Positions 4,983 through 50,649 of a DNA stretch of 55,038 bases are shown piece by piece (the stretch's first letter is position 1; each line of letters begins with the position of its first letter). The stretch comes from Clostridia bacterium (GTDB lineage Bacteria; Bacillota; DSM-521; Neomoorellales; Neomoorellaceae). Below the pieces are notes generated by a model. It was not told where the DNA came from. It saw nothing but the letters and a program-made list of their open reading frames with translations, and ran no database searches. The stretch lies in contig JASUSV010000008.1 of NCBI GenBank assembly GCA_030445865.1, positions 1-55,038 of the forward strand, given 5' to 3'. The position numbers and the translations under genes are program-made.

Positions 4983-5381
4983 TCAGTCTCTTGACTTAAT
5001 GAAGTCCCGTATTTGTTTAGCAATATCAAAGGCTTTCTTGGCATCGACTTCATTGGGCAATCCTTCAGGTAAACTCCCAACCGGAGCATTTGGATACCTG
5101 GTAGGAATATAATACATATCAAGCATTAAGGCATCTTGCTTGAGCTCTTCAAGTTCCCCTACTACTTGTTGGCACAAGCTTAACAGTGTGGGCAGCTTGT
5201 GAATCCTGGGAGGGTTTATTCTATGCTTGACGAGAAAGGCTTTTAGATACTTCTCGGCAGCCTGATGGGAGTGAAAGCAGGCTAAATTGTATAACTCTGC
5301 CTTGATAAGTTCCTCTGCAGCTTTGAGATCGTCATCGGCATACTTAAGCCAAGCTTCGTATTCTTGCTGCCGCGCTGTCAT
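4983..5381 (-). CDS. HEPN domain protein
   Basis: The 132-residue product has the HEPN four-helix pattern, YADDDLKAAEELI near the start and then ACFHSHQAAEKYLKAFL (about 34-50), where helices 2 and 3 of the DUF86/DUF4110-like HEPN group lie. HEPN proteins paired with MNT nucleotidyltransferases form toxin-antitoxin-like or nucleotide-modifying modules. In characterised HepT/MntA pairs the HEPN protein is an RNase carrying an R-x4-6-H motif. I do not see a clear R-x4-6-H here, so ribonuclease activity is uncertain. The gene overlaps the upstream MNT gene by 38 bases, a strong sign of a two-gene unit. Confidence 0.75.
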   Translation of the reverse strand: MTARQQEYEAWLKYADDDLKAAEELIKAELYNLACFHSHQAAEKYLKAFLVKHRINPPRIHKLPTLLSLCQQVVGELEELKQDALMLDMYYIPTRYPNAPVGSLPEGLPNEVDAKKAFDIAKQIRDFIKSRD

Positions 5382-5709
5382 AAACCACGACCCCTTTTTT
5401 TACTACCTCTTCCTTCAAAAATAGGTTATCGTCTTCCAGCATCTGCCTGAATTCCTCCGGTGTATATACGAGAAAATCTACTCCTACCCGTGGATTAGTG
5501 AGTTTCGCTAGGAACAATAACCTCTCCACAAATCTCATATCTGTGTTCATAACAACTACCAGATCAAGGTCGCTATATTCGTTCACCTTACCTCCTGCCA
5601 GGGAGCCGAAAAGAATAATCTTTTCCGGCCGGCAGTTTTCAATTATAATCCTGCTTATGCGGCCCAACTCTTCTCTGAGATATTGGCTATCAGCAACACC
5701 TCCGTCCAT
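5344..5709 (-). CDS. MNT-type minimal nucleotidyltransferase
   Basis: The product contains ILFGSLAGG followed by YSDLDLVVVM, the G-S-x9-D-x-D catalytic pattern of pol-beta-fold nucleotidyltransferases. In MntA-like antitoxins this activity adds AMP to the HEPN partner and silences it. The frame opens at 5817 but the first residues look like leader. The ATG at 5709 (MDGGVADSQYL) or a TTG two codons earlier at 5715, which sits 6 bases after ggaggg, are better starts. The 3' end overlaps the HEPN start. The module lies within a region rich in broken defence genes. Confidence 0.75.
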   Translation of the reverse strand: MDGGVADSQYLREELGRISRIIIENCRPEKIILFGSLAGGKVNEYSDLDLVVVMNTDMRFVERLLFLAKLTNPRVGVDFLVYTPEEFRQMLEDDNLFLKEEVVKKGVVVYDSAAARIRSLA

Positions 5710-5861
5710 ACCCAAAGAAATCCCTCCTTCCTCTTCGTTTCTAGCCCGGACAGTCGATACAATATTTCCAGTCTCAAGGGTGCATTGGGAGAAATTACAG
5801 CTTTTCCCACCTTTCAAAAGTTATAGTACCATACGGCACCTATAATAGCAATCTATACAGC

Positions 5862-44190: not shown

Positions 44191-44815
44191 TTAACTCCGA
44201 TATAATACGGCACCGTAATTGGCCTCCAGGGATACAACAATCTGGCCATTTCGCACTTCAAAAGCCCTATTACTCAAACCGTCTTCCCAGGCTTCTCCTT
44301 CTGCCAGTTCCAGCTCCTCTGCCGCCAGAGTAACAGTTTGGGGAAAATCGCTGGCGTTTAAAACCACAATAACCCTGTCACCTCCCAGGCGCCGGGCGTA
44401 AACGCAGACTTCAGCCTTGTCGTCCACAAAAAGGGGCTGGAAAAATCCGCGCCGCAGTGGTAGGAGACGGTGTCTTAGGGCTATTAAGCGGCGGTAGAAG
44501 GCGAGGAGATCCTGCTCCCACTCCCGGGGTTCCCAGGGCATGGTCCGGCGGCATTCGGGATCAGGTCTTCCGATAAGCCCCACTTCGTCGCCGTAATAAA
44601 TTAGGGGAATGCCGGGATAGGTGAATTGTAAGATTAAAGCCGGTCGTAAGTGCATTACCGCCTCGGCGTAGGTGCCGGAATGCCCAGGTTGGCCGGCCAG
44701 GCCTTCCTGAAAAGCAGTAATTACCCTGGCAGTATCGTGGCTCCCCAGGAGGTTTAGCAGGGCAAAATTAGCTACTTCGGGATAACGCAAGCGGATAAGC
44801 CGGCCGGCAATCGGG
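44191..44815 (-). pseudogene. GH13 alpha-amylase-family protein, C-terminal third
   Basis: The translation RLIRLRYPEVANFALLN is followed by LLGSHDTARV (the conserved NHD/SHD region IV), GIPLIYYGDEVGLIGRPDPECRR (region VII-like) and the C-terminal beta domain. It matches neopullulanase/cyclomaltodextrinase-type GH13 enzymes from region IV on. The N-terminal barrel, with the nucleophile Asp and acid Glu, is missing; homology starts about 44812 and the frame upstream hits a stop at 44848. The remnant could not be catalytic. Confidence 0.8.
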
Positions 44816-44945
44816 GTCGGACCAGAAAGGCATGGGCAGGACGCATCTTATCCTCTCCTAACGTGTCTTAAGTACTTCATCGCCCGGCATCTGGTGCAGG
44901 GGGTAGACCTGTGGCTGACCAACCCGCGCCGCCCCCTGAAAGTGT
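44816..44945. pseudogene. Fragments resembling alpha-glucan phosphorylase
   Basis: On the minus strand ATG at 44846, 6-8 bases after ggagagg, opens MRPAHAFLVRPRLP, like the start of glucan phosphorylases. On the plus strand, about 44870-44942 encodes IARHLVQGVDLWLTNPRRPL, the conserved VQGVDVWLNTPRRP segment of the same enzyme family. The two shards lie back to back in opposite directions, each only 15-25 residues long, joined to a GH13 remnant on one side and a CBS protein on the other. This suggests serial recombination through glycogen genes. Confidence 0.5.
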
Positions 44946-45207
44946 ACCAGTATGCGATGAAAGCGGTAAAATTATAGGTATGGTGAGCGAAGCCGATCTT
45001 ATCGCTTTAAAAAATGGCAGCCGGGTTAAAGATATTATGAACCCGGAAGTAATCACTGTTAGTGCTGATACTCCTGTAGAAAAAGTAGCTGCTATTATGC
45101 ATGCGAAAAAAGTCAAGCGGGTACCTGTTTAGGATAAGGGCCAGTTGGTGGGTATTATCAGCCAGGCTGACATTGTGGCGGCCATGGCCCAAAAGCATGG
45201 GGAGTAA
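44911..45207 (+). pseudogene. CBS-domain protein, 5'-truncated and with an internal stop
   Basis: From about 44945 the frame encodes VPVCDESGKIIGMVSEADLIA, VKDIMNPEVITVSADTPVEKVAAIMHAKKVKRVPV, then a TAG at 45130-45132, then DKGQLVGIISQADIVAAMAQ to TAA at 45205. This is a CBS pair, normally about 150 residues with both halves; the first CBS half is missing its beginning, and the stop splits the second. The first part of the apparent open frame (44911-44944) is out-of-frame phosphorylase sequence. Confidence 0.8.
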
Positions 45208-45229
45208 TTTATTGGATTGCTTTGCCGGA

Positions 45230-45283
45230 GCAAGAAAGGCGCCCTTAACTAACAGGACGCGCTTTTCTTGCCTTTGTCTTTTT
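45230..45283 (+). terminator. Long-stem terminator after the CBS remnant
   Basis: Arms 45230-45242 and 45259-45271 form 13 pairs with one G-U, loop of 16, then ctttgtcttttt. It lies 23 bases after the CBS stop and should end plus-strand transcription. Confidence 0.8.
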
Positions 45284-45560
45284 ATGGTGGCGCCCTGGCT
45301 AGCTAGCCCATCTTCCGCACTTTGGGGTTAAGAAGCTATACATCATACAAAGGGGAAATCATGGGTGTTTGCGGGCATTTTTCAGGCGCACATGTTTCAC
45401 GATTTTCCATGTGCTTTGCAAGTTTTATGCCCTGCTTGATAAAAACTGTCTGGATGGAGTTTGTGGTAATTTAACCCGCCGGCCATTAATCCATTAAGAA
45501 TATTTGGCATCATGAGGCATCGGCGGGATTTATAAAAATAAGCTGGGAGGTGTTTTCTAC
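45284..45560. other. Gap without recognised gene
   Basis: AT-rich with a few short repeats. Around 45515-45540 the motif ggcgggattt-ataaaaataa resembles ggcaggatttttaaaaac at 47510-47527, possibly a shared regulatory box, but two copies are too few to judge. Confidence 0.35.
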
Positions 45561-46533: not shown

Positions 46534-47028
46534 TTACTCGAGCTTTTCAGCCAGGTGAATAAGGAAAGCCTTAAAGATAGCGAGTTCGCGGGTAACTCGA
46601 CTAGCAACGCCATCCAGCTCTCTTACTAAATGCTCCATGCGCTCCCATTCAAGAAGATGGCCATATACATTGCGGAATATGTGACGAAAGCGCAGGTATT
46701 CGTCCAATTTTTTTTCTAAATCTCGAGAAATAACGGCAGGACGAAGTTTGGGTATATCAAGGGTCATATTTTGCAAAAGACGTTTATGCCAATTAGGTTC
46801 TTTCGGTAGCCCACCATTAAGTGTAACGGCAATGTTTTCAAAAACATTTTCAATACAGGAGTAAAAATCGTGTAGGATGCTTCCCATAGCCCTCAAGCTA
46901 AAAGTATCCGGGTTTCGGTCTTTATTAATTTTTTGCCAGGTTCTTGCTTCTTGTACAATGTTTAATAAATCGGACAGGCGGTTATCAATTTCCGCCGCCA
47001 AGGTTAGCAGTTGGCCCCTGTCTCTCAT
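46534..47028 (-). CDS. HepT-like HEPN ribonuclease toxin candidate
   Basis: The 164-residue helical protein has FYSCIENVFENIAVTLNGGLP and a later RHIFRNVYGHLLEWERM, which includes R-N-V-Y-G-H, the R-x4-H catalytic motif of HepT-like RNases (with the Tyr inside). It overlaps the upstream MNT gene (46985-47028), as in HepT/MntA pairs. The MNT partner probably AMPylates the Tyr to block the RNase. Function is by family analogy. Confidence 0.85.
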   Translation of the reverse strand: MRDRGQLLTLAAEIDNRLSDLLNIVQEARTWQKINKDRNPDTFSLRAMGSILHDFYSCIENVFENIAVTLNGGLPKEPNWHKRLLQNMTLDIPKLRPAVISRDLEKKLDEYLRFRHIFRNVYGHLLEWERMEHLVRELDGVASRVTRELAIFKAFLIHLAEKLE

Positions 47029-47416
47029 AAAGCAGTATCCCCTTTTCCAGGATGACCCCTTTTAAAGATGATGGACAGTGGTTTATATCTATCAAGTCAA
47101 CGGGCCGGTCACTTAAATTATTAAGGGAGGAGAGTACGGGAAAATAATCTGAGGGCGATAGGCCTTCGACAGCTAAGTCGAGATCGGACTGGGGTAAATA
47201 ATTTTTTTGCCCCCGTAAATACCAGGCTAGCGAACCAAAAAGCCACACTCTCGTTACCGTTGGTATCGTAGATAAATACATGGCTAAGTTCTTGGCTGTA
47301 AATAAAGCAACTTGGGCATCTTGCCGCATTTTTTGCCTTTCTTCCCGGATCATCTCCTGCCATCCCACAACATAATCGTTAAATTGTTCTGGAATAACCG
47401 GAGGCATAAAGTTCAC
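46985..47416 (-). CDS. MntA-like nucleotidyltransferase antitoxin candidate
   Basis: The product has VWLFGSLAW with SDLDLAVEGL further on, the G-S-x-n-D-x-D catalytic pattern. The insert of about 10 residues between GS and DLD (YLRGQKNYLPQ) is long. A start at ATG 47416 gives MNFMPPVIPEQF; an ATG at 47407 (MPPV) also fits. It is paired and overlapping with the HepT-like gene. It differs enough from the pair at 5 kb to be a separate module. Confidence 0.85.
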   Translation of the reverse strand: MNFMPPVIPEQFNDYVVGWQEMIREERQKMRQDAQVALFTAKNLAMYLSTIPTVTRVWLFGSLAWYLRGQKNYLPQSDLDLAVEGLSPSDYFPVLSSLNNLSDRPVDLIDINHCPSSLKGVILEKGILLYERQGPTANLGGGN

Positions 47417-48156: not shown

Positions 48157-48627
48157 ATGGTTAAAGAAACCTTTCCGGGTATTTTTTATGCTTTACTACT
48201 ACAGGATTTTCCCGAAAGCCTGGTAGAAACCATGGCGGTGTTTAGTATTCTAAACCTGCGCCTGCGGGATAAAAAAGTTCTTTTTATTGCCTTATTACAG
48301 ACTCTCACCAACCTGGTGCGCCTTTTGCCCATAGCCTTCGGGATGCATACGGTAATTTTAAGCCTTTCTTTGGCCATCTATACCCGGCTCATCACCAAGG
48401 CCCAGCTAAGCAAGATCTTCTTGGCCATTCTAATCACTTTTGTCATTATAGGAGTGGTAGAATTAATTTATTCTGAGCCACTTTTAAAAGTTACCGGACT
48501 AAAGTATGAAACAGTTTTTGCCGACCCCGTTTTGCGGGCGGCCTTTGCGCTACCTTATGAAATAGTTTTACTGGTTGTGGCCTTAAGCAAGAATTACTAC
48601 AACCAAAGAAAAGGATTAATTTGCTAA
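48157..48627 (+). CDS. AgrC-like membrane sensor domain without kinase
   Basis: The 156-residue protein has five or six transmembrane segments (FPGIFYALLLQDFPESLVETM, VLFIALLQTLTNLVRLLPIAFG, HTVILSLSLAIYTRLI, IFLAILITFVIIGVVEL and VLRAAFALPYEIVLLVVAL). The pattern LLPIAFGMHT resembles the N-terminal sensing part of Spo0B/AgrC-like GHKL histidine kinases of clostridia. It has no kinase domain. A short peptide gene of the AgrD type follows 110 bases later, so it probably recognises or handles that peptide. No AgrB-type processing protease was found in the window. Confidence 0.55.
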   Translation: MVKETFPGIFYALLLQDFPESLVETMAVFSILNLRLRDKKVLFIALLQTLTNLVRLLPIAFGMHTVILSLSLAIYTRLITKAQLSKIFLAILITFVIIGVVELIYSEPLLKVTGLKYETVFADPVLRAAFALPYEIVLLVVALSKNYYNQRKGLIC

Positions 48628-48737
48628 GGCTTGGAAATTTATTCTGGTCTATGGTGGTAGGCCTCTAGCTTAACCTTGGGCGGGGCGCCGGTCTGCCACT
48701 TTAAATAGACAAAATTAATTTAAGGAGGTAAAAGGGG

Positions 48738-48869
48738 ATGAAGCGCATCTTCTATAAACTTTTACCTGCCGCCTGCAGCTTTCTGGTTCTGGCTGCCGCC
48801 ATGGGCGTAAAGCCGACTTGTACGCTCTTCTGGTACCAACCCGAAGTCCCTGAAGCCCTCAGGAAATAA
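48738..48869 (+). CDS. AgrD-like cyclic lactone autoinducer peptide precursor
   Basis: The 43-residue precursor has an amphipathic/hydrophobic leader (MKRIFYKLLPAACSFLVLAA), then GVKPTCTLFWYQPEVPEALRK. The T-C-T-L-F-W-Y core, with the Cys that would close the thiolactone ring, followed by Q-P-E-V-P-E acidic tail, is the AgrD-family pattern in clostridia. The start follows aaggaggtaaaagggg. It lies between the AgrC-like gene and a c-di-GMP gene. It is too short for automatic calls and has not been assumed from any database. Confidence 0.85.
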   Translation: MKRIFYKLLPAACSFLVLAAAMGVKPTCTLFWYQPEVPEALRK

Positions 48870-48979
48870 GCAACTCTCCTGGCCGGGTAGCCCGCCCTTC
48901 CCGGCCGGGAGCGCCACTTCTGGTAGAAAAAGGGGGAATGAAAGGGTAAGGCTTAATTCATCGACGGGAGAATTTACTG

Positions 48980-50649
48980 ATGCGCAAGTGGGAAGAAAAA
49001 AGGTCGGCAGAAATATCCGAATACATCCTGGTTACCCATATTGTGTGCCTCTTGATCTTTCTTATGATTGTGTTTAGTTTTTATAACTTGCCGCTGGGGC
49101 TCAACTTACCCCTGCATTTAGGTCTTTTATTCTCTCTCTTTTCCGCAGGAATTATAGTATATGCTTCCAGGAAACTCTTCGTTAAGATACCGTCCCTTGG
49201 CCAGTCTAAAGCAGATGAAATATTGCTCCTCCTGATCATTTCTCCTCTCACTCTTACCTTCTTGTGGTACAGCAAAAATTTTTTTGGGGCCAAAGTTCTG
49301 CTTATAATCCCCTCAATAATTGCCGCTACCGCCTTCGGCAAGCCGGCGGGGACTATCGGAGCGATTCTGGCCAGCGCCCTCCTCTTTTTTATGGACTATA
49401 AGCTCTTTCACCGCTTGCCCCCCGAAGTCTTCCAATCCAATGCCATTATGGCCAGCGTAACCATACTTTTAGCCTGGCTGGTAGGCGGGTTGATGGAGGT
49501 AGAAAGAAAAACCCAGCAAGAATTAATTCAACTCGCCGATTACGACCAATTAACCGGTTTATATAACCACCGCTACCTGCAGGAAAAACTTGCCCTGTCT
49601 TTACAGAAAGCGGCTACAGAAAACAGCCCCCTTACCGTTGTTTTATTAGATATAGACCAATTTAAATACTACAATACGGTTTACGGCTACCAAAAAGGGG
49701 ATGAAATTTTAAGCGCCATCGGCCAACTACTCCAGGAAGAAGTTAAAACTCCTTTTTATGCCGCCCGCTACGGCAGCGACGAGTTTGCACTAATCTTTCC
49801 GGGGAAAGAAAAAAGCGAAGCCTGGGAGCTGGCTGCCCATATAAGAGAAAAAATGGCCGGCCGGGCTACAATCTGCTTGCTGGAAAATAAAATGGCGCCT
49901 CCTTTTAAGCCGTTTAGCATATCTGCAGGTTCCGCCAGCTACCCTGCTGACGGTGAGGCGGCATTGCCCCTTATCAGAGCGGCGGAAAACGACTTATTTA
50001 GAACCAAATACAGCCAGGACAAAACTTATCTTTACTACTCTATAATAAGCGAAATAAGTACCTTAAAGGCCAAAGAGGCCTTTCCTACTCTGAGATCCTT
50101 AGTGGCGTTAATTAATATCAAGGATCGTTATACCTTTGGCCATTCGGAAAGAGTCCTATCCTATGCCCTCGCCTTAGCGGAAAAATTAGCCCTTTCCGAG
50201 CAGGATAGAGATACCCTGCGCTACGGCGCCTATTTGCACGACCTCGGCAAAATTGAAATCGAGGCCGCCGTTTTAAATAAATGCGGTCCATTAAATGAAC
50301 GAGAATGGGAAGTCATGAAAAACCATACCATATGGGGCAGCGAAATATAGTTAAGCCTTTACTATTTTTACAAGAAATAGCACCAATTATTCGCTTTCAT
50401 CATGAAAACTATGATGGTTCGGGTTACCCTGAAGGCTTAAAAGGGCAAGAAATACCCTTGCTTGCCCGCATTGTGCGCCTGGCCGACAGTTTCGACGCCA
50501 TGACTACCGACCGCCCCTATAGAAAAGCCCTGGAATTGTCCGAAGCCAGCCGGGAGCTGCAAAAGCACGCCGGGACATATTACGACCCCTCCTTAGTAGA
50601 CCCCTTTCTGGCAGTAGTAAAAGAAGTATATGAACGAGAAAACTGTTAG
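48980..50649 (+). pseudogene. Membrane GGDEF plus HD-GYP protein, frameshifted
   Basis: Six N-terminal helices (about 15-165) are followed by GGDEF (about 190-345) with DYDQLTGLYNHRYLQ and RYGSDEFALIFPG (Gly-Ser rather than Gly-Gly), then HD-GYP with GHSERVLSYALALAEKLAL and YLHDLGKIEIEA. The frame breaks at 50348-50350 (WGSEI, stop) and goes on, from the other frame, as VKPLLFLQEIAPIIRFHHENYDGSGYPEGLKG to 50649. Deleting the dinucleotide ta in atata would restore one 555-residue protein. It would make and hydrolyse c-di-GMP. The peptide genes just ahead suggest that it is the output of a peptide signal. Confidence 0.75.

Follow-up and report, generated by a model that had tools for sequence, protein, structure and literature searches.

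The agr systems of Staphylococcus, Listeria and clostridia comprise AgrB, AgrD, AgrC and AgrA. Where quorum sensing is linked to c-di-GMP, the connection is more often known to run through transcription. In C. difficile, agr affects c-di-GMP genes via AgrA-dependent transcript levels of separate enzymes (PMC3754575), and Clostridium thermocellum makes an AgrD-type cyclic pentapeptide whose AgrD gene is not located in any apparent agr operon (PMC5322536). Among the open-access papers searched, we found no description of an agr operon that includes a GGDEF/HD-GYP gene. Here, we analysed a locus of the window, i.e. the whole 55,038-nucleotide stretch of contig JASUSV010000008.1 from a Clostridia bacterium (assembly GCA_030445865.1). 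This locus likely derives from a four-gene agr variant, MEM-AgrB-AgrD-ADAPT-GGDEF-HD-GYP, and is now in decay; the intact variant would have a peptide-controlled c-di-GMP output. The operon family to which it belongs is widespread and plausibly represents a new agr variant with c-di-GMP as its direct output.

MEM and ADAPT are used as labels for two membrane families lacking a convincing Pfam match. As an earlier note on this DNA had described, genes for MEM, AgrD and a GGDEF/HD-GYP protein are all present and consecutive on the forward strand (Table 1), and the locus contains neither a kinase nor an AgrB gene, the sole AgrB of the genome being encoded on another contig. Of the AgrC receptor histidine kinase that characterizes agr systems, the locus has the sensing half and no kinase; beside the peptide gene, where relatives carry agrB, it keeps a remnant. 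No AgrA candidate with a LytTR domain was seen among the adjoining ORFs, as read from the ORF list. The c-di-GMP enzyme gene spans 48980-50350, with a tail at 50350-50649, and its product combines a GGDEF domain with the G[GS][DE]EF motif of diguanylate cyclases, the GSDEF form being found in other family members as well. Elsewhere in the window, small-gene pairs resembling HEPN/nucleotidyltransferase pairs were noticed by eye at 46534-47416 and 4983-5817.

Table 1. Positions of the features of the locus within the window
Feature	Position	Strand	Description or basis
MEM	48157..48627	+	Membrane protein of 156 aa with five helices; AgrC-type sensing domain as a separate protein
agrB 5' remnant	48621..48632	+	TTG start overlapping MEM stop codon, then CTAAGGCTT
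agrB 3' remnant	48646..48719	+	Small insertions; CAG changed to the stop TAG; 58/74 identical to agrB of L035-L037
Shine-Dalgarno-like AAGGAGG before agrD	48722..48728	+	Direct reading of sequence
AgrD precursor, 43 aa	48738..48869	+	TIGR04223, 41.3 bits (cut-off 19)
Predicted thiolactone ring CTLFW, AgrD residues 28-32	48819..48833	+	Alignment with 97 AgrDs
ADAPT, N-terminal six-helix membrane domain of c-di-GMP enzyme	48980..49525	+	Profile A2
GGDEF domain, motif RYGSDEF	49535..50014	+	PF00990, 114.9 bits; motif alignment
HD-GYP first half (HDLGK)	50099..50350	+	PF13487/PF01966; early TAG at 50348-50350
HD-GYP second half (HHENYDGSGYP), other frame	50350..50649	+	PF13487, 95.9 bits

Conservation of the neighbours, on which the earlier note had made its reading depend, is evident: in nearly every close relative, MEM orthologues (54-76% identical to the window MEM) are followed by agrB, agrD and a GGDEF/HD-GYP gene. 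The exact order MEM-AgrB-AgrD-ADAPT-GGDEF-HD-GYP was observed at 44 of about 80 loci tallied, most of the others differing in the number of MEM calls (additional or absent), lying at contig edges or having a kinase instead of GGDEF; recurrence of the same order in dozens of genomes is more than chance. The four-gene operon is present in Moorella mulderi DSM 14980, M. stamsii, Thermanaeromonas, Romboutsia, Desulfofundulus thermosubterraneus, D. australicus, Desulfotomaculum copahuensis and Desulfovirgula thermocuniculi, and in Syntrophaceticus schinkii a MEM match, missed by the ORF-based call, precedes AgrB-AgrD-GGDEF-HD-GYP. ADAPT profile A2 has matches in 98 of 398 Bacillota genomes. Strong ADAPT places number 80 in this set; at 61 of them, in 49 genomes, MEM is encoded on the same strand no more than 3 kb away, at a median MEM-ADAPT spacing of 1358 nt that leaves room for agrB and agrD.

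The likeness of the membrane protein to the sensing half of AgrC, seen in the earlier note, was supported: as a separate protein, MEM shows homology to the N-terminal half of fused AgrC-type kinases adjoining AgrBD. In kinases of 448-460 aa, the part matched by MEM profiles is the N-terminal half, and profiles of enzyme-linked and kinase-linked MEMs align with each other at 99.9% probability. At one locus (L073), the neighbours of the fused MEM kinase are AgrB, AgrD and a response regulator of the LytTR type, i.e. the canonical agr layout, and such a regulator is also found in a further sister system (L074). The structure model of MEM (pLDDT 89.8) shows five long membrane helices. Pfam and NCBIfam hold no family for MEM, neither MEM nor ADAPT matched a solved structure by sequence, a Foldseek search of the PDB with MEM gave no match, and no AgrC sensing-domain structure was found among solved structures. 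Searches of phages and plasmids returned no MEM relatives by sequence. By fold, two phage proteins gave weak matches (prob 1.00, TM about 0.65, E 0.07-0.09); these are uncharacterised proteins of about 160 aa (BFVD A0A8S5PKY4 and A0A8S5S981).

Six helices are predicted for ADAPT, the last of them long and leading into GGDEF. The same domain carries either GGDEF-HD-GYP or, in sister operons, a histidine kinase. At two loci (L174, L175), MEM lies beside ADAPT without AgrB or AgrD, and such pairs, together with the kinases on ADAPT, would fit a modular receptor unit. The best structural match, a weak one, was ImcA (PDB 8wcn; prob 0.87, E 0.33, i.e. not significant by E-value), which we take to be a membrane diguanylate cyclase with a six-helix MASE-type domain.

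Alignment of 97 AgrDs showed that the precursor has a ring position conserved in its homologues, as the earlier note had required. A conserved C or S is followed by four hypervariable residues and then by [YHF][QE]P, the tail reading [YHF][QE]PxxP. The ring-opening residue is C in 75 AgrDs and S in 22, and 87 distinct rings were counted among the 97; these AgrDs were selected by the C/S and tail pattern, to which part of the tail conservation is due, ring variability playing no part in the selection. All of the 106 AgrBs carry the HxxxxxxC catalytic pair. As a side observation, ring chemistry tracks the type of output: the ring residue is Cys in 58/60 enzyme-linked AgrDs and Ser in 20/26 of those linked to a plain kinase.

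A unit designed to work without AgrB was not supported, as intact relatives carry agrB between MEM and agrD and the window keeps a remnant at this place. The 110 nt ahead of agrD contain an agrB start codon and 74 nt that align to the 3' end of agrB in relatives (L035-L037), with a score reached by 0/1000 dinucleotide-preserving shuffles. The 5' remnant bases are identical to the intact agrB start in L040, and the overlap of the TTG with the MEM stop is arranged as in relatives. About 500 nt have been lost, small insertions shift the frame and one Gln codon now reads TAG. Using the remnant indels as a clock for long retention of the neighbouring genes was considered and dropped, as a single complex event may have caused the deletion.

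The second lesion affects the c-di-GMP enzyme. Relative to orthologues, an extra 'TA' after GSEI breaks the frame and creates the early stop; the HD-GYP tail (VKPLLFL...HHENYDGSGYP) runs on in a different frame and aligns without gaps to what follows GSEI in orthologues. An HD domain and the HHExxDGxGYP motif in one frame, the signature of HD-GYP phosphodiesterases, occur in 66/67 family proteins, the window protein being the sole exception. With agrB lost and HD-GYP severed, the window copy is either non-functional or yields only a truncated GGDEF protein. The reading frames of MEM, AgrD and GGDEF are nevertheless unbroken, and the window proteins do not have longer branches than those of relatives, so that the copy may not be dead; dN is well below dS, a ratio of limited use as dS is near saturation.

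Other damaged genes were encountered in the window and in relatives. A few kb upstream of the locus (44191-45331), an amylase-like ORF is truncated and a CBS-like ORF is broken (both named by eye), which suggests that decay may extend beyond the agr genes. Besides the window copy, one more example of the operon is in decay (L172, 4419-6560, genome G008): it has an 89-aa agrB fragment with a TAG and a short AgrD; its ADAPT-GGDEF-HD-GYP is intact and its MEM is absent. In two same-genus relatives, the kinase genes of kinase-type agr loci are split by an inserted opposite-strand ORF of 564 aa (L058, 5370-8179, G011) or 294 aa (L062, 5507-7829, G006), pointing to recurrent agr decay in this family. 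One family member (L044, 3383-5302) has a degenerate GGDEF motif (GGARF), suggestive of a phosphodiesterase-only variant.

Several other readings of the window copy were weighed against decay. The frameshift in HD-GYP could be an assembly error, and an artefact might even account for the whole picture, the real genome having an intact agrB and frame: the assembly is a draft of 90 contigs, and both the TA insertion and the small insertions of the remnant lie in A/T-rich or simple stretches. We regard this as improbable, since the agrB remnant shows substitutions, a stop and the loss of about 500 nt rather than indels alone, and ORFs of at least 100 aa cover 85% of the window, which makes general sequence error unlikely. 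Processing of the peptide by another protease in a system free of AgrB is more improbable still. The nearby subtilase, which the earlier note had put forward, has a hydrophobic N-terminus and lies directly downstream of the locus; it is however convergent, absent beside most other copies examined and seen in this position solely in Moorella and one further genome of the same family (L040), all of which also have agrB, and the remnant testifies to a former AgrB in the window itself. Processing by an AgrB located elsewhere, the other option of that note, would leave a three-gene unit still at work, MEM and the GGDEF part responding to an AgrD matured in trans. On contig C24 the genome does encode an AgrB, its only one, which carries the catalytic pair and belongs to a second system of the order MEM-kinase-AgrB-AgrD; both AgrDs of the genome, two in all, end in WYQPEVPxxLRK, and the intact frames, the Shine-Dalgarno-like site and the low dN would agree with activity. 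Another MEM-AgrD-ADAPT locus without agrB exists (L179, G318), with three AgrBs elsewhere in the same genome. We nonetheless find a working unit doubtful, because the C24 AgrB is part of a kinase-type system with a Ser ring in its AgrD, a single AgrB is found in this genome alone among 13 of its family, and the HD-GYP of the window is broken.

At the level of the family, MEM might instead aid export by AgrB or protect the membrane, ADAPT sensing something else. In favour of this, most close relatives have MEM overlapping or almost touching agrB, and tandem MEM copies occur at some loci. However, fused AgrC kinases have MEM as their sensing half, and MEM also adjoins ADAPT proteins where AgrB is missing; we consider this role unlikely. 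At one locus (L182, 2737-5720), several tandem MEM genes surround AgrB/AgrD ahead of an ADAPT-kinase, and are possibly several receptors for one peptide.

The route from a cyclic peptide to c-di-GMP suggested by the earlier note is supported for the family, through gene order and homology, and we lean towards a widespread Bacillota agr variant that sets c-di-GMP directly, a split AgrC sensor acting via ADAPT bearing GGDEF/HD-GYP or a kinase. In the four-gene operon, AgrB would cut AgrD and cyclise it to a five-residue (thio)lactone that exits the cell. Within the membrane, the peptide would be bound by MEM, a separate AgrC-type sensing domain, which would associate with the six helices of ADAPT, both together forming the receptor. 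This would then shift the balance of diguanylate cyclase and phosphodiesterase within the same protein, presumably with a rise or fall in c-di-GMP, so that the state of population or diffusion would set c-di-GMP directly, without phosphotransfer. If true, this would be a direct enzymatic route from Gram-positive peptide quorum sensing to c-di-GMP, hosted by acetogens, sulfate reducers, syntrophs and Romboutsia. The family also offers AgrB/AgrD pairs that are unstudied and whose peptides can be predicted, such as a cyclic CSVCF in M. mulderi, and it delineates the membrane families MEM and ADAPT.

When compared with known systems, ADAPT enzymes resemble MASE-type six-helix diguanylate cyclases such as ImcA in that a membrane domain precedes GGDEF, but the latter have no known AgrBD or MEM partner. 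In C. difficile, agr and c-di-GMP are linked too, but no enzyme lies within the operon (PMC3754575). The C. thermocellum peptide likewise comes from a thermophile and has a five-residue ring, indicating that such peptides are made; there, the ring is a lactone, and AgrB, receptor and output enzyme were not identified (PMC5322536). With agr of Staphylococcus, Listeria and clostridia, the new family shares the H/C pair of AgrB, an AgrD with a variable five-residue ring and conserved tail, and an AgrC-type sensing domain. It differs in that this domain is a separate protein and the output is a membrane GGDEF/HD-GYP enzyme rather than a kinase with a LytTR regulator, and the window copy further differs in having no agrB.
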